Source of the DNA: Cupriavidus pauculus
Lineage (GTDB): Bacteria > Pseudomonadota > Gammaproteobacteria > Burkholderiales > Burkholderiaceae
Direction: 5' to 3'
Assembly (NCBI RefSeq): GCF_003854935.1
Contig: NZ_CP033969.1
Coordinates: forward strand, 62,001-126,000
DNA: 64,000 bases
Under the pieces are notes generated by a model that was given only the letters and a program-made list of their open reading frames with translations, was not told the DNA's origin and did no database searches. Shown here piece after piece: positions 5,899 to 25,702 of the stretch. Position 1 is the first letter of the stretch, and each line of letters begins with the position of its first letter. The position numbers and the translations under genes are program-made.

Positions 5899-7044
5899 TT
5901 ACTTGCTGGACGGGTAGGACCCGAGCACCTTCAGGTACGCGGCGTTGGCGCGCAGCGTCTGGATCGCGCGCGCCACGGCCGGCTCGTGCTGGTGGCCTTC
6001 CACGTCGACGTAGAAGTAGTACTCCCAGGCACCGCTGCGGGCCGGGCGCGACTCGAAGCGGCACATCGACACGCCGTTCTCGGCCAGCGGCGCCAGCAAC
6101 TGGTAGACCGCGCCGGCCTTGTTCGGCACCGACAGGATCATCGACGTCTGGTCGCTGCCCGACGGCTCCGTCTCATAGCGGCCGATCACGGCAAAGCGCG
6201 TGCGGTTGTGCGGATCGTCCTGGATATTGGCGCGGACGATGTGCAGGTGGTAGCGGTTGGCGGCGGTCTCGCCGGCGATGGCGGCCACGGTGGGGTCCAG
6301 GCTCGCCATGCGCGCCGCTTCGGCGTTGCTGGACACCGCCTGGCGCTCCAGGTGCGGGTAGTTGGCCGTGAGCCAGTGCTGGCACTGCGCCAGCGCCTGC
6401 GCATGGGCGCGTACCACGGTCACGCCCTGCATGTCCGGCGACGACGCCATCAGGTTGTGATGCACCTTCAGCGCAATCTCGCCGCTGATCTTCAGCGACG
6501 TCTGCAGGAACAGGTCCAGCGTGCGCGACACGGCGCCCTCGGTGGAATTCTCCACGGGCACCACGCCATATTCGACCGTGCCGGCTTCCACGGCGCGGAA
6601 GACCTCGTCGATGCTCGGCACCGGCACCCCGTGGACCTCATGCCCGAAGTGGGCATACAGCGCCTGCTCGGAGAACGTGCCGGCCGGGCCCAGGAACGCG
6701 ATCTCCAGCGGCTTCTCCAGGCCGCGGCAGGCCGACATCACCTCGCGCCAGATCGACGCGACGCTCTCGCCCAGCAGCGGGCCCGGATTGGCGCCCTGCA
6801 CCTTGCGGATCACCTGCAGCTCGCGCTCGGGGCGGAACACCGGCGCGCCGTACTTCTTCTTGACCTCGCCCACGTCCAGCGCAAGCTGGGCGCGGCGGTT
6901 CAGCAGCGCCAGCAGTTCGCGGTCCACGGCGTCGATCTGGTCGCGCAGCGGCGCCAGGTCTGCCGAGAGGGCCTGCTCCTGCGGGCTCGGGGCGGCGTTG
7001 TCGGTGTCCGGGGCCTGCGCGCCGGACTTGTCTTGCTCTGTCAT
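5899..7044 (-). CDS. pheA: bifunctional chorismate mutase / prephenate dehydratase (P-protein)
   Basis: The 381-residue protein begins MTEQDKSGAQAPDTDN with a low-complexity leader. An AroQ chorismate mutase domain follows (about 30-115, containing RDQIDAVDRELLALLNRRAQ). Next is the prephenate dehydratase domain (about 115-290), with the catalytic HNRTRFAVIG motif. The C-terminal ACT domain carries CRFESRPARSGAWEYYF, the phenylalanine-binding ESRP element. It therefore makes phenylpyruvate from chorismate and is probably feedback-inhibited by phenylalanine. The ATG at 7044 was chosen over an upstream start at 7170 because the extra residues are unrelated to the family. It sits 88 bp downstream of serC. 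Confidence 0.97.
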   Translation of the reverse strand: MTEQDKSGAQAPDTDNAAPSPQEQALSADLAPLRDQIDAVDRELLALLNRRAQLALDVGEVKKKYGAPVFRPERELQVIRKVQGANPGPLLGESVASIWREVMSACRGLEKPLEIAFLGPAGTFSEQALYAHFGHEVHGVPVPSIDEVFRAVEAGTVEYGVVPVENSTEGAVSRTLDLFLQTSLKISGEIALKVHHNLMASSPDMQGVTVVRAHAQALAQCQHWLTANYPHLERQAVSSNAEAARMASLDPTVAAIAGETAANRYHLHIVRANIQDDPHNRTRFAVIGRYETEPSGSDQTSMILSVPNKAGAVYQLLAPLAENGVSMCRFESRPARSGAWEYYFYVDVEGHQHEPAVARAIQTLRANAAYLKVLGSYPSSK

Positions 7045-7132
7045 AGGCCTATGGGCCGCGCATGGCACGGCCTCGGAAAGTCTGGGCTGTTGCCGGACCC
7101 GCGTGGCGCGCGCCCGGCAGAAAGCACCGCCG

Positions 7133-8296
7133 TCAGGCGGCGGTGCGCTCGAATTCGCGCATGAATTCAATCAGCGCGGTCACACCTTCGAGTGGCATCG
7201 CGTTGTAGATGCTGGCGCGCATGCCGCCCACGGACTTGTGGCCCTTGAGCTGTACCAGGCCGTTCGCGCGCGCCTGGGTCAGGAACGCTTCGTTGCGCGA
7301 TTCGTCGCGCAGGAAGAACGGTACGTTCATGCGCGAGCGGCTGCCGGGATCGATTTCGTTGCGGTAGAAGTCGCTCTGGTCCAGGAAGTCGTACAGCGCG
7401 CGCGCCTTGGCGATGTTGCGCTGCTCGATCGCGGCCACGCCGCCCTGGGCCTTGAGCCACTGGAACACCAGCCCCGCCACGTAGATCGCGTAGGTGGGCG
7501 GGGTGTTGTACATCGAGTCGTGCTCGTCCACCAGGCGCCAGTTGAACGCCGACGGGCAGAGCGGATGGGCAAAGCCGATCAGGTCTTCGCGCACGATGAC
7601 GATCGTCACGCCGGCCGGACCGATGTTCTTCTGGGCGCCGCCGTAGACCACCTGCACGCGCGACCAGTCGATCGGGCGCGAAAGGATGTGGCTCGACGCG
7701 TCGGCCACGACGATGCGGCCCTTGTCATGGGTGCCGGTCTGGCCGATGTCCGGGATCTCCTGAAACTCCACGCCGACGATGGTCTCGTTCGTGCACAGGT
7801 GCACGTAGGCCGCGTCGTCGGACAGCTTCCAGGTGCTGGCATCGGGAATCTTGTGCCACTTGTGGTCCTTGCTGGACGCGGCGATGTTGACTTCGCCATA
7901 GCGGCGCGCTTCCTGCTCGGTCTTGACCGACCACGTGCCGGTGACCACGAAATCGGTCTTCGGCCGCGACGCATCGACGCGATTCGCCAGGTTCAGCGGC
8001 ACGATGCCGTTCTCGCCGATGGCGCCGCCCTGCAGGAACAGGATGCGGAAATTCTTCGGCACGTGCAGCAGTTCGCGCAGGTCCGCCAGCGCCTGCTGGT
8101 GGATGCTTTCGAATTCCTTGCTGCGGTGGCTCATCTCCATCACCGACACCCCGGTGCCTCGCCACGACAGCATTTCCGCGGCGGCCTGCTGCAGGACTTC
8201 GGTCGGCAGCGCGGCCGGGCCCGGCGAGAAATTGAAGACGCGCTCGGCCAGCGATCGTTGCAGGCCGTCGAGGGCGGGATTCTGGGGATCGTTCAT
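7133..8296 (-). CDS. serC: phosphoserine aminotransferase
   Basis: SerC (387 residues) transaminates 3-phosphohydroxypyruvate to phosphoserine and also serves pyridoxal phosphate synthesis. The protein shows the typical N-terminal [12 protein letters not shown] segment, the [11 protein letters not shown] motif that carries the PLP lysine, and a C-terminal region ending [19 protein letters not shown]. The first 18 residues extend slightly beyond the usual start. No Shine-Dalgarno is visible before the ATG: the leader on the coding strand is TTTTCTTTTCCCCCTCC. That leader is directly the T-tract of a terminator-like hairpin (see the entry at 8301-8343), so translation or transcription control of this gene may be unusual. 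Confidence 0.97.
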
Positions 8297-8300
8297 GGAG

Positions 8301-8343
8301 GGGGAAAAGAAAAATGGCTGCCGGATTGCACCAGGCAGCCATT
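8301..8343 (-). terminator. intrinsic terminator-like hairpin just upstream of serC
   Basis: On the minus strand a perfect 10-bp stem AATGGCTGCC / GGCAGCCATT (8343-8334 with 8322-8313) closes an 11-base loop. It is followed at once by TTTTTCTTTT. This is a textbook intrinsic terminator for the upstream DUF2059 gene, but its T-tract ends only about 5-10 bases before the serC ATG at 8296. A second 9-bp perfect stem, GGCCTCTCC/GGAGAGGCC (8403-8411 with 8424-8432), lies between it and the DUF2059 stop and has no T-tract. Confidence 0.65.
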
Positions 8344-8441
8344 ATCGCCCAAAACCCGCGCCCCTTGGACACCAGGGCGTCCGGCGCGGACCCGGGCGGG
8401 TCGGCCTCTCCGTGCCAGGGCCCGGAGAGGCCAGCCGTCGA

Positions 8442-9008
8442 TCACTTCGCGGCGGCGGCGATTTCCTTCTCGGCGGCGTCGCGCATCGACTTGCCAACCT
8501 GCGGACCGTACTTCTGCATCATCGAGCCCCAGATTTCCTGCGTGGCCTTGCCCTGGTTCTGCATGAACTTCTGGCCCGTCGGCGACTTCAGGAACGTGGT
8601 CAGGTCCTTGATTTCCTGCGTCGTGTAGTACTTGCCGAAGGCATCGTAGTGCGCCTTGATGGCGTCCTGGCGGAAGCCGTCGGTGTTGAACGCGGTGCCC
8701 GCGCCGTCCACCATGCGCTGCACGGCGCCGTTCTTCTTGAGCTTCTCGACGGCGGCCTGCTTCTTCTTGTCGTCCATCGTCTTGTTCTCGACCAGGACCT
8801 GCTCCAGCACCAGCGGCGCTTCCTGCTTGGCGCCCTGCTGCCAGTTCTCGGCCTGACCCTTGACGGCCTGGTCGGCCTGCATGACGGACAGCAGTTCCTT
8901 GATGGCCGCGGTCTTGTCCTTGTCTTCCTGAGCGTGCGCACCTTGCGCCAGCATCATCATCGGAGCGAAAGCAGCCAGAACAGCGATACGTCGATAGGTT
9001 TTGAGCAT
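8442..9008 (-). CDS. DUF2059-domain exported protein
   Basis: This 188-residue protein has a Sec signal peptide (residues 1-26, hydrophobic core AVLAAFAPMMMLAQGAHA, probable cleavage after AHA). The mature part is charged and helical, with the DUF2059 pattern in the second half (FGKYYTTQEIKDLTTFLKSPTGQKFMQ). The family is periplasmic and of unknown function. It lies between gyrA and serC, the usual position of this family in Burkholderiales, and is probably transcribed with gyrA. A strong hairpin terminator follows it. Confidence 0.88.
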   Translation of the reverse strand: MLKTYRRIAVLAAFAPMMMLAQGAHAQEDKDKTAAIKELLSVMQADQAVKGQAENWQQGAKQEAPLVLEQVLVENKTMDDKKKQAAVEKLKKNGAVQRMVDGAGTAFNTDGFRQDAIKAHYDAFGKYYTTQEIKDLTTFLKSPTGQKFMQNQGKATQEIWGSMMQKYGPQVGKSMRDAAEKEIAAAAK

Positions 9009-9090
9009 TATGACTCCCTGGTAAATACGTCCGGTTTAGTCCGAACGGCCGTCTGGCGAGTTCCGGCCGTCGTCCCGTTGTTGCAACAAT

Positions 9091-11793
9091 TTACGAATTG
9101 GCGTCCGCGTCGGTGGCGCCCGCGCCGGTATCGCTGCCCGTGGCGGCGTCACTCGCGGCGTCCTGGGCCAGCTCGTCGTCCTCGCCGTTGCCGTTGCTGT
9201 CGGCATCGCTCTCGACGATGCGCTGCAGCCCCGACAGCTTGGTGCCTTCGTCCACGTTGATCAGCGTCACGCCCTGGGTGGCGCGGCCCATCTCGCGGAT
9301 TTCCGCCACGCGGGTGCGGATCAGCACGCCGCCCGTGGTGATCAGCATGATCTCGTCCTCGGGCGACACCAGGGCGGCGGCCACCACGCGGCCGTTGCGC
9401 TCGCTCGTCTGGATCGCAATCATGCCCTTGGTGCCGCGGCCATGTCGAGTGTATTCCGAGATCGGCGTGCGCTTGCCGTAGCCATTCTCGGTGGCGGTCA
9501 GCACGCTGCCGATGGCCGGCACGCCGTCGGCAGTTTCAGCATCGGCAGTCTCTGCCGGCGCCACGAGCATGGCGATGACGGCCTGCCCTTCGTCGAGGTT
9601 CATGCCGCGCACGCCGCGGGCCTGACGGCCCATCGGACGCACGTCGTTCTCGTCGAACCGCACGGCCTTGCCGGCGTCCGAGAACAGCATCACGTCATGC
9701 TGGCCGTCGGTGATGGCGGCACCGATCAGGAAGTCGCCCTCGTCCAGGTCCACGGCGATGATGCCGGCCTTGCGCGGGTTCGAGAAATCGGTCAGCACCG
9801 TCTTCTTGACCGTGCCGCGCGCGGTGGCCATGAACACGAAATGCTCGGCGTCGAACTGGCGCACCGGCAGGATCACATTGATCTTCTCGCCGTCGGCCAG
9901 CGGGAACATGTTGACGATTGGCCGGCCGCGCGAGTTGCGCGAGCCCTGCGGCACCTCGTAGACCTTCAGCCAGTACAGCCGGCCGCGGTTCGAGAAGCAC
10001 AGGATGTAGTCGTGGGTGTTGGCCACGAACAGCGTGTCGATCCAGTCGTCTTCCTTGGTCGCCGTGGCCAGCTTGCCGCGGCCGCCACGCTTCTGCGCAC
10101 GGTACTCGGAAATCGGCTGGCTCTTCATGTAGCCCGAGTGGGACAGCGTGACCACCATGTCCTGCGGGGTGATCAGGTCCTCCATGTCGAGCTCGGTGGC
10201 GTTCAGTTCGATCTGCGAGCGGCGGGCGTCGCCAAACTCGGCGCGGATGGCGCCCAGTTCCTCGGTGATGATCGTCGTGATGCGCTCCGGGCGCGCCAGG
10301 ATGTCCAGCAGGTCCGCGATCAGGCCCATGACCTCGCGGTACTCCTGCACGATCTTGTCCTGCTCCAGCCCCGTGAGGCGCTGGAGTCGCATTTGCAGGA
10401 TTTCCTGCGCCTGCCCGTCCGACAACCGGTACAGGCCATCCGGCTGCATGCCGAACACGGCCGGCAGGCCATCGGGACGGTAAGACGCACGGCCGCCCGC
10501 GGTGTCGCTTTCGGCACGCGACAGCATCTCGCGGACCAGGCCCGAATCCCACGGCTTGGCCATCAGTTCCTGCTTGGCCAGCGGCGGCGTCGGCGCGGCC
10601 TTGATGATCGCGATGAACTCGTCGATGTTGGCCAGCGCCACGGCCAGGCCTTCCAGCACGTGGCCGCGCTCGCGGGCCTTGCGCAGTTCGAACACCGTGC
10701 GGCGCGTCACCACTTCGCGGCGATGCGACAGAAAGGCGTCCAGCATCTGCTTCAGGTTCAGCAGGCGCGGCTGGCCGTCGACCAGCGCCACCATGTTCAT
10801 GCCGAACGTGTCCTGCAGCTGGGTGTTCTTATATAGGTTGTTCAGCACAACCTCGGGCACCTCGTTGCGCTTCAGTTCGATCACCACGCGCATGCCTGAC
10901 TTGTCAGATTCGTCGCGGATGTCCGAGATGCCCTCGATCTTCTTCTCTGTGACCAGCTCCGCGATCCGCTCCAGCAGCGTCCGCTTGTTCACCTGGTACG
11001 GCAGTTCGTCGACGATGATCGCCTGGCGCTGGCCGCGGTCGATATCCTCGAAGTGCGTGCGCGCGCGCATGACCACCCGGCCGCGGCCGGTGCGGTAGCC
11101 CTCGCGCACACCCTGGATGCCATAGATAATGCCGGCGGTCGGAAAATCGGGCGCCGGCACCAGTTCGATCAGCTCGTCGACCGTCGCCTCGGGATTACCA
11201 AGCAGATGCAGGCAGGCGTCGACGACTTCATTGAGGTTATGCGGCGGGATATTCGTGGCCATACCCACGGCAATACCCGACGAACCATTGATCAGCAAAT
11301 TCGGAATACGCGCCGGCAAAATACCCGGCTCTTTCTCCGAACCGTCATAGTTCGGTTCGAAATCGACAGTTTCCTTGTCGATATCGTGAAGCATTTCATG
11401 GGCGATCTTCGCCAGGCGGATTTCGGTATAACGCATCGCCGCGGCGTTATCCCCGTCCACCGAGCCGAAGTTACCCTGGCCGTCGACCAGCATATAACGC
11501 AGCGAGAAGTTCTGCGCCATGCGGACGATGGTGTCGTACACGGCCGTATCGCCGTGCGGGTGGTACTTACCAATCACATCACCGACGATACGGGCCGATT
11601 TCTTGTAGGCCCGGTTCCAGTCATTGTTCAGCTCATGCATCGCAAAGAGCACGCGCCGGTGCACCGGCTTCAGGCCGTCCCGGACATCGGGCAGCGCGCG
11701 CCCCACGATCACGCTCATCGCGTAATCGAGGTATGAACGGCGCATTTCCTCTTCCAGCGAGACCGGAAGAGTTTCTTTGGCGAATTGATCCAT
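9091..11793 (-). CDS. gyrA: DNA gyrase subunit A
   Basis: GyrA (900 residues) forms the breakage-reunion core of DNA gyrase with GyrB and introduces negative supercoils. The active-site tyrosine is Y122 ([10 protein letters not shown]). The quinolone-resistance region reads [12 protein letters not shown], with T83 and D87 in E. coli numbering, which this protein follows exactly here. The GyrA box QKRGGRGK, needed for DNA wrapping, is in the C-terminal beta-pinwheel. The last 50 or so residues are an acidic Asp/Ala/Gly-rich tail, as in other gyrases of this group. Start at 11793 ([17 protein letters not shown]) matches the family. It heads the minus-strand supraoperon. Confidence 0.98.
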
Positions 11794-15468: not shown

Positions 15469-16662
15469 TTAGCGAATCACACGCCACAATGCCGGCGTCA
15501 CGGCAGGGCTCCATCCTGCACCGCGCCACGCCGTATGGCGTTGCAGGCAGACGTAGCGCCGGCCCTGATAGGTCACGGCCTGACCGATTTCATAGGTCGG
15601 GCCTTCACGCCACGTGTCCAGCGCGCGGCCGTCGACCTGGCCCGTGGCCGCCTGTCCGCCACCGCCGGACCGGCCGCTGGCGCTGGGCGCTTCCTTGTCG
15701 ATCTCGAAGCGGTAACCGGGGTAGGACTTGCCCAGGTACACACGGTTCGCCGTGGCCGACTGCAGCGGCACGATGTTCGAGACCCCGTTGCGCGCCTGCA
15801 GTTCGCCGATGCGGAAGATCTGCGACTCCGCGTTCACCTTCTGGGCCAGCTGATAGGCCCAGGTGCGTGCCCGGGCATTGCTCGCGGTGATGGTGAGCAC
15901 ATGCTTGCCAGAGTCGCGGCCGGCGCTGTCGAGCGCGCGGAACGTCAACTTGGTACCGGCCACTAGGTCGCCCATCGCGGCCAGCGGGCCCTGGTCTTCC
16001 CAGCCGATCTCACGCACCGGCAGGCCGTCGCCCGGGAACCGCACGTCGGCACAGGCGTAGAACGCTTCCGGGCTGTCGCTACGCTGCCAGATGCTGTAGA
16101 TCACGTGGCTGCCTTTCTTGCCCTTGGGGAGCTGCACGTTCATCCGGTAGCGGCCGCCCTCCTCGGTGGCCTGCGCGCCGGTGACCGTCGCAAATTCCTC
16201 AAGATCCTGCCAGCGCAGCGGCACGCCCGGGTCCCAGTCGTCGCGGGTGATGTAGTACTTGAAGTACTGGGTGGCGTGGCGGGCCGTGGCGCGCCAGACG
16301 AACGTGTAGTCGCCGGACGCCGTCGGGACGATGGACGTCTGCGGCCAGTCCAGCCGGGCGAGGTCCAGCCCGCGGAAGCTGGCCGATCCGCCCGAGCACA
16401 GCTCGCCATCGGCGACGAATGCCTTGTGGTTGCCGGCGGCGCTGCCCTGCCGGACGCCGTTCCAGTCGTAGAACTGCTGCGCGCCGCCCACGGCCCGGGC
16501 AGCCTGGCAGGCGCCGGACTTGGGCTGTTCGGCGCCTTCGCTGTAGCAGGTCAGCACGCGGCTGGCCGGAAGTTCCATCGTGCCGTGCGCGAATGCGGTC
16601 AGCGGCGTGGCCATCGCGGCGGCTGTCGCCAGCCCCGCCAATACGGCTCTGTTGAATTGCAT
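15469..16662 (-). CDS. secreted AA10 lytic polysaccharide monooxygenase with chitin-binding C-terminus
   Basis: The 397-residue precursor has a Sec signal peptide ending LTAFA, so the mature protein begins HGTMELPASR. The N-terminal His (H26 of the precursor) is the first ligand of the copper histidine brace. The second is H129 in WRATARHATQYFKYYIT, the usual AA10 position. The oxidase domain covers about 26-215 and a linker domain about 216-335 resembles the middle module of GbpA-like proteins. The C-terminal 48 residues (from DTWREGPTYEIGQAVTYQG to PALWRVIR) have the Trp/Tyr pattern of a CBM5/12 chitin-binding module. The enzyme oxidatively cleaves chitin or cellulose outside the cell. A good Shine-Dalgarno (AAGGAAAACACC) fixes the start at 16662. 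Confidence 0.9.
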   Translation of the reverse strand: MQFNRAVLAGLATAAAMATPLTAFAHGTMELPASRVLTCYSEGAEQPKSGACQAARAVGGAQQFYDWNGVRQGSAAGNHKAFVADGELCSGGSASFRGLDLARLDWPQTSIVPTASGDYTFVWRATARHATQYFKYYITRDDWDPGVPLRWQDLEEFATVTGAQATEEGGRYRMNVQLPKGKKGSHVIYSIWQRSDSPEAFYACADVRFPGDGLPVREIGWEDQGPLAAMGDLVAGTKLTFRALDSAGRDSGKHVLTITASNARARTWAYQLAQKVNAESQIFRIGELQARNGVSNIVPLQSATANRVYLGKSYPGYRFEIDKEAPSASGRSGGGGQAATGQVDGRALDTWREGPTYEIGQAVTYQGRRYVCLQRHTAWRGAGWSPAVTPALWRVIR

Positions 16663-16867
16663 GGTGTTTTCCTTGGTTCTGCGGGTCGGGATGCCGTGCA
16701 GAAGACGGCCGCGCGATTTGAACCGCTCGCCCATGTGCGAGGAATCGGATTTTTCTGAAACCGCCCGATGCCATGCGGGCGGTCAATCCGATGACAATCC
16801 GAATCCATCGCGGCGTGCTGGCGACTGGGCGCTACAATAGGCCCGTCGTTCTCACCTTCCCGCCTTC

Positions 16868-17366: not shown

Positions 17367-17837
17367 TCAGAGAAACCGGTCCAGGATCTTGCGGCTGGGC
17401 TTGTCTAGCGCAAGCTGGTCGCGGATCAGGTAGTGGATGCCGTGGCTGTCCGAGATCAACAGGCAGGTCCCGGTGAGCCGGCGGATGTCCTCCTCGCCGC
17501 GCAGCACGAGGTCGGTCTGGCCGCGGTCCGTCTGCACGGTCCACGTGCTCGGCGTCGCATAGGTCGACACGCCCAGAATCTTCTGAATTTCGGGCATGAA
17601 CTCGCGCGATGCCAGTTCCTCCTCGATCAGCTGGCGCGTCGGGCCCGGCAAGGCGTCGAGCCGGGGAATCCAGGCCAGTTCGTGGCCGTCGGTGCTCATC
17701 ATGCCGACGCCGTCGTCGGCCGCCGAGATCGGGAAGGCGCGCACCGGCACCACGCCCTCGTGCGGCGTGCCATCGGCCGTGGTCAGCACCAGCTTGCCGA
17801 GGCGGTTGCGGGTCAGGGTGAAATCGGGCGTCTGCAT
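17367..17837 (-). CDS. DUF1854 protein associated with cyanophycin locus
   Basis: This 156-residue protein starts MQTPDFTLTRNRLGKLVLTT and matches the DUF1854 family in my recollection: an N-terminal beta-rich part with EGVVPVRAFPISAADDGVGMMS, then RLDALPGPTRQLIEEELASREF and a C-terminal GTCLLISDSHGIHYLIRD. The same family is found next to cyanophycin synthetases and the ABC exporter in related genomes. It has no signal peptide or membrane segment. The gene follows the ABC exporter with a 22-bp gap, so the two are one transcriptional unit. Its biochemical role is unknown; an accessory or regulatory function for the exporter or for cyanophycin metabolism is only inferred from the neighbourhood. 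Confidence 0.85.
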   Translation of the reverse strand: MQTPDFTLTRNRLGKLVLTTADGTPHEGVVPVRAFPISAADDGVGMMSTDGHELAWIPRLDALPGPTRQLIEEELASREFMPEIQKILGVSTYATPSTWTVQTDRGQTDLVLRGEEDIRRLTGTCLLISDSHGIHYLIRDQLALDKPSRKILDRFL

Positions 17838-17859
17838 AGCCGTTTGCTCAAATGATCGA

Positions 17860-20160
17860 TTACTGGGCACTGACCGGCTCCGCCGTCTCGGCGCGCTCGC
17901 CCGTGCCGGGCTCGTCCGCTTCCGCGTCGACGTTGCGCGCCTGCGCCTGATACAGCTTGTAGTAGGCGCCTTCGCGCGCGAGCAATTCGTCGTGGCTGCC
18001 CACTTCGACGATCTGGCCGCGGTCCATCACCACCAGCCGGTCGGCCTTGCGCAGCGTGGACAGCCGGTGCGCGATGGCAATCGTGGTGCGGCCCTGTACG
18101 AGGTTGTCCAGCGCCTTCTGGATTTCCTTCTCCGTGGTGGTGTCCACCGACGACGTCGCCTCGTCCATGATCAGGATGCGCGGGTCGATCAGCAGCGCCC
18201 GGGCGATCGAGATGCGCTGGCGCTCGCCGCCGGACAGCGCCTGGCCGCGTTCGCCGACCAGCGAGTCATAGCCATGCGGCAGCCGCAGGATGAATTCATG
18301 GGCATGCGCCGCGCGGGCCGCCGCGATGATTTCCTCGCGCGTGGCGTCCGGCTTGCCGTAGGCGATGTTGTCCGCGATGGTGCCGAAGAACAGGAACGGC
18401 TCCTGCAGCACCAGCCCGATATTGCGACGGAACTCGGACACCGGCAGCGAGCGGATATCAACCCCGTCCACCCGGATCGCCCCCTCGGAAACGTCGTAGA
18501 AGCGGCAGATCAGGTTGACCAGCGTGCTCTTGCCCGATCCGCTGTGGCCCACCAGCCCGATCATTTCGCCGGGCGCGATCGTCAGGTCCAGGCCGCGAAT
18601 CACGGCGCGATTGCCATAGCGGAAGCCAAGGTCGCGCATTTCGATGGCGCCTCGTACATTCTCCAGATGCACGGGCTTCTGCGGCTCGGGCACGCTGGAC
18701 ACATGGTCGAGGATGTCGAAGATCCGCTTGGCGCCGGCCGCCGCCTTCTGCGTGACCGACACGATGCGGCTCATCGAGTCCAGCCGCGTGTAGAAGCGGC
18801 TGATATAGGTCAGGAATGCCACCAGCACGCCCACCGTGATCGCATTGTGGCTGACCTGCCAGATACCGAAGATCCACACCACCAGCAGGCCCACCTCGGT
18901 CAGCAGCGTGACGGTGGGCGTGAACAGCGACCACACCGCGTTGACACGGTCGTTGATGGCCAGATTGTGGCGATTGGCCTCGCGGAACCGCACGACCTCG
19001 CGCTTTTCCTGCGCGAACGCCTTGACCACGCGGATGCCCGGGATGGTGTCGGCCAGCACGTTGGTGATTTCGGACCAGATGCGGTCGATCTTCTCGAAGC
19101 CGTGGCGCAGGCGGTCGCGCACCAGGTGGATCATCCACGCGATGAACGGCAGCGGCACCAGCGTGACCAGCGCCAGCCACGGGTTGATGGAGATCAGGAT
19201 GATGGACGTCATCGCGATCATCAGCACATCGGTGGCGAAATCGAGCAGGTGCAACGACAGGAACACGCTGATGCGGTCGCTCTCGGAGCCGATCCGCGCC
19301 ATCAGGTCGCCCGTGCGCTTGCCGCCGAAGTATTCGAGCGACAGCTTCAGCAGGTGTTCGTAGGTGGTGGTGCGCAGGTCGGCGCTGATGCGCTCGGACA
19401 CGCGCGCCAGCAGGTAGGTGCGGGCCCAGCCCAGCGCCCAGGCCACCAGCGAGGCGCCGAGCAGGCCGGCCAGGTACAGCTTGACGAGGTCGTAGTCGAT
19501 CGGCAGGCCGTTCTGATAAGGAATCAGAACCTTGTCCATCAGCGGCATGGTCAGGTACGGCGGCACCAGCGTGGCGGCCGTGCCCAGCAACAGCAGCATG
19601 AAGCCGCCGGCCAGTTGCCAGCGGTACGGCCGGGCAAAGCGCCACAGCCGCAGCAGCGCCCACGTCGACGGCGGGGTCTCCAGCTCGCGGCTGCATTGCG
19701 GGCACTGTTCCTCGCCCGGCGGAATCGGCGCCTTGCAGGTGGGACAGACATCGGCATCGGGCACGGCGGCATGGCCAGTGGCGAGCGTGTCGCGGCGCGC
19801 GTCGAACTGGTCGGCCAGCCGCAATGCGTCAGGATTGTAACCAAGCGTGTAGCGCCAGCTTGCCAGCCGGATCGGGCCGTCGGCCAGCTCCAGCGTGCCC
19901 ACGCCGGCGTGGTCGCCATGGGTCAGGGTCAGGCCGGGGCCGATTTCCCAGCTTCGCAGGTCTTTTTCACCCGGGGCGCGAGAGATCAGACGACGATCCG
20001 TCACAACCAGCCACCCTTGGGTAAAATGCAGCCTTGCGTCCAGGTCCAGCATCAGCCCGGCCAGGACGGTTTCCCCGGGCAGCAGGCCGGCGCCGAGTTC
20101 GGCAGCCCAGGGACCATGCGGGCCGGGTTGGGTGGAAGCAGACGGGGAGGACTGGGTCAT
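17860..20160 (-). CDS. ABC exporter (fused permease-ATPase) with N-terminal PH-like region and zinc ribbon, cyanophycin-associated
   Basis: The protein has 766 residues. Residues 20-130 are a beta-rich region with LLPGETVLAG and WLVVTDRRLIS that resembles bacterial PH-like domains. A zinc ribbon follows (C139/C142 and C153/C156, CPTC and CPQC). The type I exporter membrane domain spans about 175-465 with six hydrophobic segments. The nucleotide-binding domain has Walker A GHSGSGKST (538-546), Q-loop Q586, signature LSGGERQ (642-648), Walker B ILIMDE (662-667, catalytic E667) and an IAHRLS H-loop. All ATPase motifs are intact. It is divergent from cphA'. Substrate unknown: the family co-occurs with cyanophycin genes, but a soluble intracellular polymer gives no obvious export substrate. 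The start at 20160 is the first ATG. Confidence 0.9.
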   Translation of the reverse strand: MTQSSPSASTQPGPHGPWAAELGAGLLPGETVLAGLMLDLDARLHFTQGWLVVTDRRLISRAPGEKDLRSWEIGPGLTLTHGDHAGVGTLELADGPIRLASWRYTLGYNPDALRLADQFDARRDTLATGHAAVPDADVCPTCKAPIPPGEEQCPQCSRELETPPSTWALLRLWRFARPYRWQLAGGFMLLLLGTAATLVPPYLTMPLMDKVLIPYQNGLPIDYDLVKLYLAGLLGASLVAWALGWARTYLLARVSERISADLRTTTYEHLLKLSLEYFGGKRTGDLMARIGSESDRISVFLSLHLLDFATDVLMIAMTSIILISINPWLALVTLVPLPFIAWMIHLVRDRLRHGFEKIDRIWSEITNVLADTIPGIRVVKAFAQEKREVVRFREANRHNLAINDRVNAVWSLFTPTVTLLTEVGLLVVWIFGIWQVSHNAITVGVLVAFLTYISRFYTRLDSMSRIVSVTQKAAAGAKRIFDILDHVSSVPEPQKPVHLENVRGAIEMRDLGFRYGNRAVIRGLDLTIAPGEMIGLVGHSGSGKSTLVNLICRFYDVSEGAIRVDGVDIRSLPVSEFRRNIGLVLQEPFLFFGTIADNIAYGKPDATREEIIAAARAAHAHEFILRLPHGYDSLVGERGQALSGGERQRISIARALLIDPRILIMDEATSSVDTTTEKEIQKALDNLVQGRTTIAIAHRLSTLRKADRLVVMDRGQIVEVGSHDELLAREGAYYKLYQAQARNVDAEADEPGTGERAETAEPVSAQ

Positions 20161-20437: not shown

Positions 20438-23089
20438 ATGAAAAAGAAGGACATTGAGATTTTCGATGTCATGTCGCTGCGCGGCCCGAATATGTGGACA
20501 TATCGGCCGGTGCTGGAGGCATGGGTCGACATCGGCGAACTGGAGGACTTTCCGTCCAACAAGATTCCCGGTTTCTACGAACGCCTGTCGGCCTGGCTGC
20601 CCACGCTGATCGAGCACCGCTGCAGCCCTGGCGTGCGCGGCGGCTTCCTGATGCGGCTGAAGGAAGGCACCTGGCCGGGCCACATCCTGGAACACGTCAC
20701 GCTCGAACTGCAGAACCTGGCCGGCATGCCCGGCGGGTTTGGCAAGGCGCGCGAGACGCCGGTACGCGGCGTCTACAAGGTCATCGTGCGCGCCTGGCAT
20801 GAAGAGGTCACGCGCGCGGCGCTGTTCACCGCGCGCGACCTGGTCATGGCCGCCATCGAGGACCGGCCGTTCGACGTCCCCGCGGCCGTGGACCACCTGC
20901 GCCGCCTGGTCGACGAACACTGCCTGGGCCCCAGCACGGCCTGCATCGTCGACGCCGCCGACGACCGCGACATCCCGTCGATCCGGCTGTCCGACGGCAA
21001 CCTGGTGCAGCTTGGCTACGGCGCGCGCCAGCGCCGCATCTGGACGGCCGAGACCGACCGCACGAGCGCCATCGCCGAATCGATCTCGCGCGACAAGGAC
21101 CTGACCAAGACGCTGCTGGAATCGTGCGGCGTGCCGGTGCCGGAAGGCCGCATGGTCGAAAGCCCCGAGGACGCCTGGGACGCCGCCGAAAGCATCGGCG
21201 TGCCCGTGGTGGTCAAGCCCTACGACGGCAACCACGGCCGCGGCGTGTTCACGAACCTGATGACGCGCGAGGAAGTGGAAACCGCCTACGGCGTTGCCAT
21301 CGAGGAAGGCAACGGCGTGATCGTCGAGCGCTTCGTGCCCGGCAACGAGCACCGCCTGCTGATCGTCGGCGGCCGCATGGTCGCCTGCGCGATGGGCGAG
21401 ACCGCGTCGGTCGTGGGTGACGGCCGCCAGACCATCGACGAGCTGATCGAATCGCAGATCAACTCCGATCCGCGCCGTGGCAGCACCGAGGACCACCCGC
21501 TGAACCGCGTGCGGCTGGATTCGGCCGCGCGGCTGGAACTGAAGCGCCAGGGCTATGCCGATGGCAGCGCCGTGCCGCCCGAGGGCCGCACCGTGCTGAT
21601 CCAGCGCAACGGCAACGTGGCGTTCGACGTGACCGACCGCGTGCACCCCAGCGTGGCCGCGCATGCGGCGCTGGCCGCCCGCATCGTCGGGCTGGACATC
21701 GCCGGCGTGGACCTGGTGGCCGAGGACATCTCGCGTCCGCTGGCCGACCAGCGCGGCGCCATCGTCGAGGTCAACGCCGGCCCCGGCCTGCTGATGCACA
21801 TCAAACCCGCCGACGGCGAGCCGCGCCCCGTGGGCCGCGCCATCGTCGACCACCTGTTCCCGTCGCGCAACGGCGTGGACGATGACGGCCGCATCCCGGT
21901 GGTGGGCATCACCGGCACCAACGGCAAGACCGTGGTGGCCAAGCTCGTGGCGCGGCTGCTGCAGCTATCGGGCAAGCACACCGGCCTGGCCTGCAGCGAC
22001 GGCCTGTTCCTGGACCGCCGCCAGGTGGAGAAAGGCGACCTGGGCGAGCGCGCGAGCTGGGAAGCCGGCCACCGCATCCTGATGAACCGCGCGGTGGAAG
22101 CCGCGGTGTTCGAGAACGACAGCGGCATGATCCTGTCGCAGGGCCTGCCCTACGACCGCTGCCAGGTGGGCGTGGTGACCAACTTCGGCCAGCCCGACCA
22201 CCTGGGCGACTACTACGTCGAGGACGCGGACCGCATGTACAGCGTGCTGCGTACCCAGGTGGACGTGGTGCTGAAGACCGGCGCCGCCGTGCTGAACGCC
22301 GCCGACGCGCGCCTGGTCGAGATGGCCGAGCTGTGCGATGGCGACGTGATCTTCTTCGGCCTGTCCGCCGACCTGCCCGCCATCGTCGCCCATCGCGCGG
22401 CCGGCAAGCGCGCCGTATTCGTGCGCGAAGGCAAGGTGGTCATGGCCACCGGCGGCAGCGAGACCGCGCTGACCGACGTGTCGGCCATTCCGCTGACCTA
22501 CGCGGGCCGCGTCGCCTTCCAGATCGACAACGTGCTGGCCGCCGTGGCCACGGGCTGGGCGCTCGGCATCTCCAACGACCTCATCCGCGCCGGCATCGTC
22601 ACGTTCGACGTGGGCCAGGTGGACGTGCCGGGCCGCTTCACGATGTTCGAGCGCCAGGGCGCCATGGTGATCGTCGACGACGCCCACAACGCCCCCGCGC
22701 TGGAAGCGCTGGCCGCCGCGCTGGACCGCTTTCCGGCCGAGCGCCGCATGCTGGTGTTCGGCGCCGGCGTGCAGCGCCGCGACGAAGACCTGGTGCAGCA
22801 GGGCAAGGTCATCGGCAAGTCGTTCGATCGCGTGTTCCTGTGCGAGGACCACAGCGTGCGCCGCGACCTGCCCGACGCCGAGGCCCGCGCGCTGGTCAAG
22901 AAGGGCCTCTACGAAGGCCGCCGCGTGACCAAGATCATCGACGAAGGCGCGCGCCGCGCCGCGGTGGAAGCCGCGCTGTCGCAGCTTGTGGCGGGCGACC
23001 TGCTGGTCCTGCAGTGCGACGAGGGCTCCCCGGAGTCCACCGTCGAGCAGGTGCACCAGTGGATGGGCCGCAGCGGACGCCGCGCCTGA
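20438..23089 (+). CDS. cphA': cyanophycin synthetase paralogue CphA' (degenerate Mur-ligase domain, intact N-terminal HxxEH)
   Basis: CphA' (883 residues) has the full CphA layout: N-terminal domain (1-160), ATP-grasp domain (about 165-475) and Mur-ligase-like domain (about 485-870). The N-terminal domain keeps H82-I-L-E85-H86-V-T-L-E90, the HxxEH...E pattern linked to a primer-generating peptidase site in cyanobacterial CphA1. The ATP-grasp keeps VVVKPYDGNHGRG and VEVNAGPGLLMH, but the usual ANLSTGG loop is replaced by NGNVAFDV. In the Mur-like domain the P-loop is GTNGKTVV (second Thr to Val499), ETARGG is replaced by ENDSGM (559-564) and HNP by HNA (750-752). Cyanophycin is a multi-L-arginyl-poly-L-aspartate storage polymer. 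The cphA start follows 33 bp after the stop. Activity of the second ligase site is doubtful. Confidence 0.93.
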   Translation: MKKKDIEIFDVMSLRGPNMWTYRPVLEAWVDIGELEDFPSNKIPGFYERLSAWLPTLIEHRCSPGVRGGFLMRLKEGTWPGHILEHVTLELQNLAGMPGGFGKARETPVRGVYKVIVRAWHEEVTRAALFTARDLVMAAIEDRPFDVPAAVDHLRRLVDEHCLGPSTACIVDAADDRDIPSIRLSDGNLVQLGYGARQRRIWTAETDRTSAIAESISRDKDLTKTLLESCGVPVPEGRMVESPEDAWDAAESIGVPVVVKPYDGNHGRGVFTNLMTREEVETAYGVAIEEGNGVIVERFVPGNEHRLLIVGGRMVACAMGETASVVGDGRQTIDELIESQINSDPRRGSTEDHPLNRVRLDSAARLELKRQGYADGSAVPPEGRTVLIQRNGNVAFDVTDRVHPSVAAHAALAARIVGLDIAGVDLVAEDISRPLADQRGAIVEVNAGPGLLMHIKPADGEPRPVGRAIVDHLFPSRNGVDDDGRIPVVGITGTNGKTVVAKLVARLLQLSGKHTGLACSDGLFLDRRQVEKGDLGERASWEAGHRILMNRAVEAAVFENDSGMILSQGLPYDRCQVGVVTNFGQPDHLGDYYVEDADRMYSVLRTQVDVVLKTGAAVLNAADARLVEMAELCDGDVIFFGLSADLPAIVAHRAAGKRAVFVREGKVVMATGGSETALTDVSAIPLTYAGRVAFQIDNVLAAVATGWALGISNDLIRAGIVTFDVGQVDVPGRFTMFERQGAMVIVDDAHNAPALEALAAALDRFPAERRMLVFGAGVQRRDEDLVQQGKVIGKSFDRVFLCEDHSVRRDLPDAEARALVKKGLYEGRRVTKIIDEGARRAAVEAALSQLVAGDLLVLQCDEGSPESTVEQVHQWMGRSGRRA

Positions 23090-23122
23090 TCCCGGCCCGA
23101 AGAACAACGGACAAACGATTCT

Positions 23123-25702
23123 ATGGAAGTCTCTCGTATCCGGGCTCTGCGTGGCCCGAATCTCTGGTGCCGGCATACCGCCATCGAAGCCATCGTGGCC
23201 TGTTCGGACCAATCGCACCTGCTGGCCGAACTGCCCGGCTTCGAGGATCGCCTGCGGGCGCGCTTTCCGGCCATTCCGCCGATGCGCCCCGACGACGAAG
23301 CCGGCTCGCCCTCGATGGCCCACGCGCTGGAAGCCGCCGCGCTGGGCCTGCAGGCCGCCGCCGGCTGCCCGGTAACGTTCAGCCACGCCGCGCCGACGCT
23401 GGAACCGGGCACCTACCAGGTGGTGGTGCAGTACAGCGAGGAAGAAGTGGGCCGGCTGGCCTTCGAGCTGGCCGAGCAGCTTTGCCTGGCCGCGCGCGAC
23501 GACAAGCCGTTCGACCTGGACGATGCGCTGCACCGCCTGCGCGAGCTGGACGAGGACGTGCGCCTGGGGCCCAGCACCGGCTCTATCGTCTACGCCGCCG
23601 TGGCGCGCGGCATCCCGTACCGGCGCCTGACGCAGGGCTCGATGGTCCAGTTTGGCTGGGGCAGCAAGCAGCGCCGCATCCAGGCCGCCGAGACCGACAT
23701 GACCAGCGCGGTCTCGGAATCGATCGCGCAGGACAAGGAACTGACCAAGAGCCTGCTGCACGCGGCCGGCGTGCCGGTGCCACTGGGCCGGTCGGTGACC
23801 AGCGCAGAGGAAGCCTGGGCCGCCGCGCAGGAAATCAACGGCCCGGTGGTGGTCAAGCCGCGCGACGGCAACCAGGGCAAGGGCGTGGCGGTGCGCATCC
23901 GCACGCGCGAGGAAGTGATGACGGCCTATGAAGTGGCGGCCGACATCTCGTCGGACGTGCTGGTCGAGCGCTACATCCCCGGCCACGACTTCCGGCTGCT
24001 GGTCGTCGGCAAGCACCTGGTGGCCGCGGCCCGCCGCGACCCGCCGCAGGTGATTGGCGATGGCACGCACACGGTGCGCCAGCTCGTGGAGGAAGTGAAC
24101 CGCGACCCGCGCCGGGGCGAGGGCCATGCCACGTCGCTGACCAAGATCCGCTTCGACGACATCGCGCTGGCCACGCTGGCCAAGCAGGGCCTGTCCGCCG
24201 ACGCCGTGCCGGCCAAGGGCGTGCGCGTGGTGCTGCGGAACAACGCCAACCTGTCGACGGGCGGCAGCGCCACCGACGTGACCGACGACGTCCACCCGGA
24301 CATCGCCGCGCGCGCCGTGGCGGCGGCCCAGATGGTGGGGCTGGACATCTGCGGCGTGGACGCCGTGTGCGAGACGATGCTCAAGCCGTTCGAGGAACAG
24401 GCCGGCGGCATCGTCGAGGTGAACGCCGCGCCGGGGCTGCGCATGCACCTGCAGCCGTCGTACGGCAAGGGCCGCGCCGTGGGCGAGGCCATCATCTCGA
24501 CCATGTTTGCCGATGGCGACGATGGCCGCATCCCCGTGGTGGCCGTCTCGGGCACCAACGGCAAGACCACGACCGTGCGGCTGATCACCCATATCCTGGC
24601 CTCCAACGGCCTGCGCATGGGCATGACCGGCACCGACGGCGTGTACATCCAGGGTCAGCGGATCGACACCGGCGACTGCAGCGGCCCGCGCAGCGCCCGC
24701 AACGTGCTGCTGCATCCCGACGTGGACGCCGCCGTGTTCGAGACGGCCCGTGGCGGCCTGCTGCGCGAGGGCCTGGCCTTCGACCGCTGCGACGTGGCCG
24801 TGGTGACCAACGTGGGCGAAGGCGACCACCTGGGCCTGTCGTTCATCAGCACCGTCGAGGACCTGGCCGTGCTGAAGAGCGTGATCGTCCAGAACGTGGC
24901 GCCGCACGGCATGGCCGTGCTGAACGCCGCCGACCCGATGGTCGCCCGCATGGCCGACGCCTGCCCGGGGTCAGTCACGTTCTTCGCCCATGACGCCGGC
25001 CTGCCGACGATGGCGCTGCACCGCGCCCAGGGCAAGCGCGTGGTGTTCGTGGAAGGCGCCGAGATCGTGGCCACCGAAGGCGAGACCAGCGTGCGGTTTG
25101 CGCTGGCCGACATTCCGCTCACGCGCAATGGCTCGATCGGCTTCCAGGTGGAAAACGCGATGTCGTCGATCGCCGCCGCCTGGGCACTGGGCATCGACTG
25201 GAACGTGATCCGCCGCGCGCTGGCCACGTTCGTGAGCGACGCCGCCACGGCGCCGGGCCGCTTCAACGTGTTCGACTACAAGGGCGCCACGCTGATTGCC
25301 GACTACGGCCACAACCCCGACGCGATCCAGGCGCTGTGCAACGCCGTGCAGACCATGCGCTCGAACAAGCGCGTGGTGGTGATCAGCGGCGCCGGCGACC
25401 GCCGCGACGAGGACATCCGCAAGCAGACGCAGATCCTGGGCGGCGTGTTCGACGAGGTCGTGCTGTACCAGGACCAGTGCCAGCGCGGCCGCGAGGACGG
25501 CGAAGTGCTGGCGCTGCTGCGCGAGGGGCTGGTGGGCGCGCAACGCACTCGCCACACCGAGGAAATCCGCGGCGAGTACCTGGCCATCGACACGGCCCTG
25601 GCCCGCCTGCAGCCCGGCGACCTGTGCCTGATCCTGATCGACCAGGTGGAAGACGCGCTGGACCACATCGCCAGGCGCATTGCCGAAACCTCGCAGGCCT
25701 GA
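23123..25702 (+). CDS. cphA: cyanophycin synthetase CphA
   Basis: CphA (859 residues) polymerises aspartate and arginine into cyanophycin with ATP. The ATP-grasp domain (about 160-465) has VVVKPRDGNQGKG, NNANLSTGGSATD and VEVNAAPGLRMH, all canonical. The Mur-ligase domain (about 470-850) has an intact P-loop SGTNGKTTT (476-484), ETARGG (540-545), GEGDHLG and HNPDA (730-734). Both ligase sites therefore look functional. By contrast, the N-terminal domain has HALEA (67-71) where CphA1 enzymes have HxxEH, and LGLQ where they have LELQ, so the putative peptidase site is lost. It is co-transcribed with cphA'. The transcript probably ends near the palindromic repeat at 25728-25753. No cyanophycinase gene is in the window. 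Confidence 0.95.
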   Translation: MEVSRIRALRGPNLWCRHTAIEAIVACSDQSHLLAELPGFEDRLRARFPAIPPMRPDDEAGSPSMAHALEAAALGLQAAAGCPVTFSHAAPTLEPGTYQVVVQYSEEEVGRLAFELAEQLCLAARDDKPFDLDDALHRLRELDEDVRLGPSTGSIVYAAVARGIPYRRLTQGSMVQFGWGSKQRRIQAAETDMTSAVSESIAQDKELTKSLLHAAGVPVPLGRSVTSAEEAWAAAQEINGPVVVKPRDGNQGKGVAVRIRTREEVMTAYEVAADISSDVLVERYIPGHDFRLLVVGKHLVAAARRDPPQVIGDGTHTVRQLVEEVNRDPRRGEGHATSLTKIRFDDIALATLAKQGLSADAVPAKGVRVVLRNNANLSTGGSATDVTDDVHPDIAARAVAAAQMVGLDICGVDAVCETMLKPFEEQAGGIVEVNAAPGLRMHLQPSYGKGRAVGEAIISTMFADGDDGRIPVVAVSGTNGKTTTVRLITHILASNGLRMGMTGTDGVYIQGQRIDTGDCSGPRSARNVLLHPDVDAAVFETARGGLLREGLAFDRCDVAVVTNVGEGDHLGLSFISTVEDLAVLKSVIVQNVAPHGMAVLNAADPMVARMADACPGSVTFFAHDAGLPTMALHRAQGKRVVFVEGAEIVATEGETSVRFALADIPLTRNGSIGFQVENAMSSIAAAWALGIDWNVIRRALATFVSDAATAPGRFNVFDYKGATLIADYGHNPDAIQALCNAVQTMRSNKRVVVISGAGDRRDEDIRKQTQILGGVFDEVVLYQDQCQRGREDGEVLALLREGLVGAQRTRHTEEIRGEYLAIDTALARLQPGDLCLILIDQVEDALDHIARRIAETSQA

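Follow-up and report, generated by a model that had tools for sequence, protein, structure and literature searches.

Reciprocal retention of active sites in a tandem pair of cyanophycin synthetase homologues from Cupriavidus pauculus

Introduction

A 64,000-nucleotide stretch of the Cupriavidus pauculus genome (contig NZ_CP033969.1, positions 62,001 to 126,000; hereafter the window, in whose own numbering all its coordinates are given) carries two adjacent genes for cyanophycin synthetase homologues that retain complementary parts of the catalytic machinery of this enzyme family. The first, cphA′ (20438..23089, + strand), encodes a protein of 883 amino acids with an N (peptidase), a G (ATP-grasp) and a degenerate M (Mur-like) domain, and the second, cphA (23123..25702, + strand), one of 859 amino acids with an N domain devoid of its peptidase site followed by a G and an intact M domain. 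We regard it as probable, from the pattern of conserved residues, that a synthetase of cyanophycin or a cyanophycin-like polymer has here undergone subfunctionalisation into two subunits, with the peptidase residing in CphA′ and the polymerase in CphA. A first-pass annotation of the window, made from its letters alone, had proposed such a split; the conserved residues, the selection on individual domains, an origin explicable by one duplication, the single-chain relatives and three pairs in another order strongly support the split itself, and the interpretation built upon it is supported in part.

The reference for residue numbering throughout is the single-chain enzyme SuCphA1 (PDB 7lg5; Su numbers). 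Its N domain is reported to be a zinc endo-peptidase that works slowly, the metal being bound by C59, H79 and H83 and E82 acting as the base; it leaves pieces of about four dipeptides and makes primers; the E82Q substitution abolishes primer-free activity, TmCphA1 lacks all four motif residues and is primer-dependent, and the motif is absent from CphA2 (PMC9262961). These reports match the primer-trimming role that the first-pass annotation had cited for the HxxEH-type site of cyanobacterial CphA1. ATP binding in the G domain involves K220 and K261, Mg is held by D431 and E450, a role in stabilising the acyl-phosphate is proposed for His267 and Arg309, and the aspartate pocket is lined by R323, N394, S396 and R458 (PMC9427784). 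In the M domain, K499, T500, T522, E558, R731 and H748 contact ATP or Mg (PMC9427784), and the D585A/H586A double substitution serves as the M-dead mutant of SuCphA1 (PMC9262961).

Orthologues and alignments

Among 300 genomes sampled from the window's order (Burkholderiales in GTDB usage), 111 hold relatives of these proteins, comprising 102 of the pair type, which have CphA′, and nine with a single-chain CphA. Loci were analysed for 100 of the 102 pair genomes (G005 and G160 were left out), and at two of the 100 (L055 and L109) no cphA lies before the contig end. Alignment to SuCphA1 yielded 100 CphA′ and 99 CphA rows, each assigned according to its identity with the two proteins of the window. 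At locus L054 (genome G010, 7016-9830) cphA is broken into two overlapping open reading frames, possibly through a frameshift or an assembly error; both frames count among the 99 CphA rows, one row in the set being a C-terminal fragment. A second set comprises 80 named loci, of which 78 have a CphA row; it is rich in close relatives of the window and is not independent of the first, with which it shares at least six loci (L195, L203, L209, L240, L241 and L246). Outside the window's order, samples of 370 and 397 genomes were surveyed.

Both window proteins belong to the cyanophycin synthetase family by their NCBIfam scores (CphA′, 1256.6 bits against PRK14016 and 870 bits against TIGR02068; CphA, 1257.2 and 966.4 bits; cut-offs 877 and 850), and they are the sole two full-length relatives in the window's genome. 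The closest solved structures for both are the CphA1 enzymes 7lg5, 7wac, 7lgm and 7lgn, followed by 8fxh and 7ta5, which we take to be CphA2. The closest named relatives of the pair, at 95% identity, come from Cupriavidus sp. D384 and U2.

CphA′ retains the peptidase site and has lost the aspartate pocket and Mur-like motifs

The N domain of CphA′ (20438..20917, + strand) contains a complete Cx19HxxEH site, invariant in all 100 CphA′ and in all 80 of the named loci. The HILEH motif at residues 82-86 and E90, which the first-pass annotation had picked out, align with H79, E82, H83 and E87 of SuCphA1 (H82, 20681-20683; E85, 20690-20692; H86, 20693-20695), and the alignment adds two residues that it had not listed, C62 (20621-20623), equivalent to the third metal ligand C59, and H60, equivalent to H57. 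With R73, the residue set of an inverzincin-like endo-cyanophycinase (Cys-His-His ligands, the Glu base, and H57, R70 and E87) is complete, and its seven members (Su H57, C59, R70, H79, E82, H83 and E87) are each invariant in 100/100 CphA′.

The G domain (20918..21886, + strand) keeps the nucleotide-binding and catalytic residues K220, K260, H266, R306, D425 and E444 and has lost the aspartate pocket. In the window protein R323 is replaced by G320 and R458 by L452, and the changed ANLSTGG loop noticed earlier proves to be a deletion of five residues following N393-V394, at the position of Su S396. The pocket is incomplete in every one of the 100 CphA′: S396 is deleted and R323 is Gly or Ser in all of them, and R458 is Leu in 96. 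The ATP and Mg residues K220, K261, D431 and E450, together with R309, are kept in 100/100 and His267 in 98/100 (Su numbers), a retention that the first-pass annotation had missed.

The M domain (21887..23089, + strand) is degenerate. It reads GTNGKTV, ENDSGM and HNA where active enzymes have GTNGKTT, ETARGG and HNP, as had been noted, and it has lost the neighbourhood of R561 and the DxxxRGRxxGE motif of the M lid. The nine M residues tested are complete in none of the 100 CphA′ and in none of the 80 from named loci. The earlier claim of a lost Mur-like site holds for the motifs and needs correcting for the ATP and catalytic residues, seven of the Su residues (K499, T500, E558, D585, H586, R731 and H748) still being present in the window protein as K497, T498, E559, D587, H588, R733 and H750. 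Most M-domain ATP residues are retained in 10/100 CphA′, the window's among them, and the C-terminal lid is missing (under half its columns filled) in 89/100 and present in the other 11; the window's own CphA′ has both the P-loop lysine and the lid. The predicted inactivity of this domain accordingly rests on the changed ENDSGM, HNA and RGR motifs and on lid loss elsewhere in the family, not on a missing ATP lysine.

CphA retains the aspartate pocket and the Mur-like residues and has lost the peptidase site

In CphA the N domain (23123..23557, + strand) has M54, P56, H67, E70, A71 and G75 in and around the former site. The HALEA and LGLQ that were reported in place of HxxEH and LELQ are there, and to these the alignment adds a proline (P56) at the Cys position and a deletion of the region around Su R70, whose residue is absent in 99/99 CphA rows, one of them being the C-terminal fragment. 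The reciprocal pattern does not stem from chance, because the N site is complete in 100/100 CphA′ against 0/99 CphA rows with C59, H79, E82 and H83 all together, and in 80/80 against 0/78 at the named loci.

The G domain (23558..24523, + strand) has the complete aspartate pocket (R305, N376, S378 and R440) along with the ATP and Mg residues, and R323, N394, S396 and R458 (Su) occur together in 98 of the 99 rows. The M domain (24524..25702, + strand) carries all tested catalytic residues and DxxxRGRxxGE, and the nine M residues are complete in 98/99 rows and in 78/78 at the named loci; the single exception is in each case a fragment of the broken cphA of L054. The lid motif is invariant in all 97 CphA longer than 800 amino acids and is not conserved in the 11 CphA′ of that length. 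Its position is probably that of the substrate-specificity motif of MurE.

One residue departs from this picture of an intact polymerase. At the position of the catalytic His267 (Su/Te numbering) CphA has Gln251 (23873..23875, + strand), a substitution that the first-pass annotation had overlooked when it described the ATP-grasp and Mur motifs of CphA as intact; the Mur motifs and the aspartate pocket bear that description out, and the ATP-grasp site as a whole does not. Position 267 is Gln in 96, His in two and without a residue in one of the 99 rows, and it is Gln in 78/78 at the named loci. Across 98 pairs, the combination of residues in CphA′ and CphA is His with Gln in 94, His with His in two and Arg with Gln in two. 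A strict exchange of His267 between the partners, considered as a candidate rule, is unsupported by these counts.

Both genes are constrained, and one duplication suffices for their origin

The ratio of nonsynonymous to synonymous substitution rates (dN/dS) was computed as medians over 17 Cupriavidus and Ralstonia sequences, giving 136 pairs for each gene. In CphA′ it rises from 0.094 in the N domain through 0.157 in G and 0.195 in the M core to 0.324 in the M lid, and in CphA it is 0.198, 0.084, 0.129 and 0.138 for the same four regions. The two per-domain profiles are mirror images, and both genes are under purifying selection. Mean pairwise identity over the 100 CphA′ is 0.648 (N), 0.672 (G) and 0.466 (M core), and over 97 CphA it is 0.598, 0.708 and 0.680, with 0.727 for the M lid. 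The possibility that one of the two genes is a functionless duplicate in decay, for which the loss of active-site residues from both copies and the shrinking M domain of CphA′ might speak, is rejected, for the set as a whole, as extremely improbable by these ratios (0.08-0.32 in every domain), by the remaining catalytic residues being invariant or nearly so in each copy, by the gene order kept in 98/98 loci, and by the expression of both copies in Accumulibacter (PMC10687191).

A single duplication suffices to account for the pair. In a quick full-length tree of 81 rows, CphA′ (support 99) and CphA (100) each fall on one side of a branch. A tree of the G domain was built from 49 rows (14 CphA′, 14 CphA and 21 others), a subset from which L273, L274 and the L086 pair were excluded, and in it CphA′, CphA and one single-chain protein, L300, form one clade (100/99) versus all 20 other CphA rows, within which the CphA′ clade is supported at 100/100.

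Single-chain CphA proteins of the window's order possess both the N site and His267 in 8/8 full-length cases, as do 17 of 19 from elsewhere, the exceptions being L300 and L269. In L300 the N site is accompanied by Gln at 267. This protein derives from genome G764, where a single chain (L305, contig C9, 6284-11782) combines N site, aspartate pocket and M site with Gln at 267 and lies beside ABC and DUF1854 genes. L300 is sister to CphA′ both in the quick tree of full-length proteins (96) and in that of the G domain (89/86). Placing it outside the pair improves the likelihood in the full-length data (79 rows, without the long-branched CphA′ of L273 and L274; approximately unbiased (AU) test p 0.83) and lowers it slightly for the G domain (AU p 0.29). 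The G764 chain looks like the undivided ancestor, a possibility to be read with the facts that the contig ends inside the gene, that the genome has 8% contamination, and that no further relative occurs among 48 genomes of its order. As a separate observation, L269 (G500:C1:110123-112216) is a distant single relative from another family of the class, without the N site and with Lys at 267 and Ala at 396.

Outside the window's order, in the samples of 370 and 397 genomes, the pair was found in a single family of another order (f128; genomes G377, G487 and G573). Its CphA′ proteins have suffered further losses in the G domain (H267L and E450A in G487; H267R and R458P in G573; most sites in G377, where the alignment is poor), such that H267 is replaced or not alignable in 3/3 and at least one of the proteins is missing a Mg ligand; in two of the three pairs position 267 of CphA is His, unlike that of its CphA′ partner. 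All three CphA′ have an intact N site. That the N site persists while G residues are lost points to it as the part that CphA′ cannot spare.

A proposed division of labour

The reading that we favour runs as follows. An ancestral single chain with three sites, an N zinc endo-peptidase, a G site for aspartate addition and an M site for arginine addition, would have been duplicated in tandem, after which CphA would have given up the N site and retained the addition of both amino acids, and CphA′ would have lost its aspartate pocket and M site, with the N site preserved. CphA would then elongate the chain, with aspartate added by G and arginine by M, and CphA′ would bind the chain and cut it at its Cys-His-His zinc site into short segments that serve as primers for CphA, so that primers are multiplied. 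The G domain of CphA′, because its ATP and Mg residues are retained, has probably kept the ability to bind ATP and the chain end but not to add aspartate, and could act as a structural or regulatory half-site. A CphA′-CphA hetero-oligomer appears likely. The supply of primers in trans seems possible because engineered SuCphA1 dimers, whose sole working N site is on the other protomer, reportedly make polymer without primer, somewhat less well (PMC9262961).

Several observations pull the other way. That CphA acts as a polymerase is not certain, because an alanine at His267, the position of Gln251, yields the G-dead form of SuCphA1 (PMC9262961) and lowers TeCphA1 activity (PMC9427784). The ATP/Mg site of CphA′, invariant in 100/100, exceeds the needs of a pure peptidase subunit. 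K499 is retained in 33/100 CphA′ and in 61/80 from named loci, and the case for a lost M activity is weakest in Cupriavidus, because the window's CphA′ retains most of the M-domain ATP residues. Trp672, at the tetramer interface of SuCphA1, falls outside the six most frequent residues in both proteins, so the assembly of that enzyme is not transferable to the pair. CphA as a clade is weakly supported in the G-domain tree (77/18). Finally, the two cyanophycin synthetase homologues of R. eutropha H16 (Adames 2013, via PMC8560796; PMC11362209) are reported to have been overexpressed at home or in E. coli with no cyanophycin detected (PMC8560796, citing Adames 2013; PMC11362209).

The wider locus and alternative functions

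The two genes keep the order cphA′ then cphA on the same strand in all 98 loci holding both. The gap between them has a median of 34.5 nucleotides, is no longer than 100 in 91/98 and is an overlap in seven; in the window it measures 33 nucleotides by the list of open reading frames. Upstream on the opposite strand lie a divergent ABC transporter gene (17863..20160, - strand), whose product scores 1444.9 bits against the cyanophycin metabolism-associated NCBIfam model NF052233 (cut-off 880), and a gene for a DUF1854 protein (17370..17870, - strand), which scores 232.8 bits against a second such model, NF052234 (cut-off 150). A homologue of the transporter occurs at 93/100 pair loci, divergently at 87, and the DUF1854 gene at 92/100. 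No paper in the literature searched mentions DUF1854. The wider locus of the window thus described has four genes, cphA′, cphA and those of the ABC transporter and the DUF1854 protein; it had gone unremarked, as had the near absence of cyanophycinase described below. An LPMO_10 or GbpA-like protein with a chitin-binding CBM5/12 domain (15472-16734, - strand) is encoded near the locus and is present in 2/100 pair loci, including the window's.

Cyanophycinase, scored as a TIGR02069 match over the cut-off, is found in 9/9 single-chain genomes versus 8/102 pair genomes, and also in five genomes without CphA; for the contrast the Fisher p is 4.8e-9, ignoring relatedness, the nine single-chain genomes representing two genera. 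Any TIGR02069 match at E ≤0.001, without the cut-off, raises the count to 15/102 pair genomes. Three of the eight cyanophycinase-bearing pair genomes belong to one genus (g58), and in G055 the cyanophycinase adjoins an extra CphA copy. The window's genome has no cyanophycinase by TIGR02069; its one S51-family protein hits no NCBIfam model over the 201 matched residues. Such scarcity may leave room for a peptidase role beyond primer making, and it is possible, if clearly less probable than the division of labour set out above and compatible with it, that CphA′ is mainly the missing cyanophycin-degrading enzyme, its endo-peptidase mobilising stored polymer and primers being a by-product. The genomic contrast agrees with this, as does the report of a cyanophycinase in 2.8% of 903 beta-proteobacterial cphA1 genomes (PMC10206079), and a separate gene could be regulated separately, unlike a single chain, in which, as Sharon et al. 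2022 discuss, the balance of making and cutting is not adjustable by protein levels (PMC9262961). The SuCphA1 N site, however, is slow and leaves pieces of about four dipeptides, so that a second enzyme would be needed to finish the work, and the position of cphA′ directly before the polymerase gene argues for joint expression.

Two side observations concern cyanophycinase neighbourhoods. In the pair genome G055 (L312, C1:5332000-5351000), two extra CphA copies, without the N site and with Gln at 267, lie next to a cyanophycinase gene. The single-chain CphA1 loci L309, L310 and L314 have a neighbour gene resembling a Mur-like domain alone, and a cyanophycinase nearby.

The transporter suggests another outcome of cutting. 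Genome-wide, NF052233 is found in 102/102 pair genomes, 0/9 single-chain genomes and 0/189 others (0/198 non-pair genomes in all), even when it is unlinked to the pair and lies elsewhere in the genome, as in G190, G137 and G169. Its domains are ABC_membrane and ABC_tran, a combination of the exporter type. CphA could polymerise, CphA′ could trim the growing product, and the resulting multi-arginyl-aspartate oligomers, short and soluble, could be exported by the transporter together with the DUF1854 protein, the polymer serving no storage purpose; this would explain the rarity of cyanophycinase and the absence of detectable cyanophycin in R. eutropha (PMC8560796, PMC11362209), and would do away with any need for granules. 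We hold this to be rather unlikely as it stands: the transporter could serve another cargo, and R. eutropha was perhaps not grown under inducing conditions. In sum, cutting by CphA′ may serve primers, polymer mobilisation or oligomers for export.

Less probable still is the view of CphA′ as a CphA2-like enzyme, whose G domain joins beta-Asp-Arg dipeptides and whose M domain was lost as unneeded. CphA2 is reported to lack the M P-loop and the M lid (PMC9427784), and CphA′ has lost the lid in 89/100 and K499 in 67/100 while keeping the ATP/Mg residues and Arg309 in 100/100 and His267 in 98. The peptidase motif, however, is absent from CphA2 and present in 100/100 CphA′; over the acceptor-loop region, 8fxh and SuCphA1 align 107 on 107 residues (a comparison of coordinates only), where CphA′ deletes five; R323 and R458 are lost; and CphA′ groups with CphA in a tree that was built without CphA2. 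A plain CphA2 identity is disfavoured by the N motif and the acceptor loop.

Significance and comparison with known systems

The division of labour that we favour would make the pair a widespread natural system, present in 102/300 sampled genomes of its order, in which the sites for making and cutting stand on separate proteins, and a clean candidate case for the subfunctionalisation of a three-site enzyme. It offers testable reasons for the rarity of cyanophycinase among beta-proteobacteria with cphA and for the failure of the two R. eutropha genes to yield detectable cyanophycin, and it gives the "cyanophycin-associated" ABC transporter a candidate partner set. Should the oligomers be exported, beta-proteobacterial "cyanophycin synthesis" would be a different biology from the cyanobacterial one.

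The gene pair itself is already known. We found no description of the reciprocal division of its active sites in the literature searched, in the parts of it that were available, with subscription journals and preprints lying outside the search, and we do not claim priority. Neighbouring cphA copies in other non-cyanobacterial genomes have been cited back to 2007 (PMC10687191). The group 1 cluster of activated-sludge genomes (Farmer et al. 2023) has, as here, two cphA copies and an ABC transporter and no cphB; it has been discussed as a possible composite transposon, its two copies are evenly expressed in Accumulibacter, and the accessible parts of that account hold no active-site comparison of the copies (PMC10687191). 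Tetrasphaera bins have two cphA copies in series, one longer and one shorter, with cphB (PMC10687191), and Sideroxydans has adjacent "CphA1, CphA2" genes (PMC5178258). The homologues of R. eutropha (Cupriavidus necator) H16 are probably the same gene pair, judging by the window's nearest relatives being Cupriavidus, and they carry the names CphA and CphA′ used here. In the portions available, the accounts of these homologues mention neither a peptidase site nor a division of labour; the report of the N site dates from 2022.

CphA2 (8fxh, 7ta5) resembles most CphA′ orthologues in lacking the M lid and many of them in lacking the P-loop lysine, both of which the window's own CphA′ keeps, and CphA′ differs from it in possessing the N-domain peptidase site and in the deletion in the G acceptor loop. 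CphA2 was sought on plasmids, and none was found among the matches listed (60 of 125 records). TmCphA1, like CphA, is without the N site; it is not known to have a peptidase-bearing partner. SuCphA1 has the same three domains as the pair, and it shares its full Cx19HxxEH site with CphA′ and its aspartate pocket and M site with CphA. Unlike the self-priming single-chain CphA1, neither CphA′ nor CphA by itself combines the N, G and M sites: what SuCphA1 holds on one chain is divided over two, with Gln in CphA at the place of His267.

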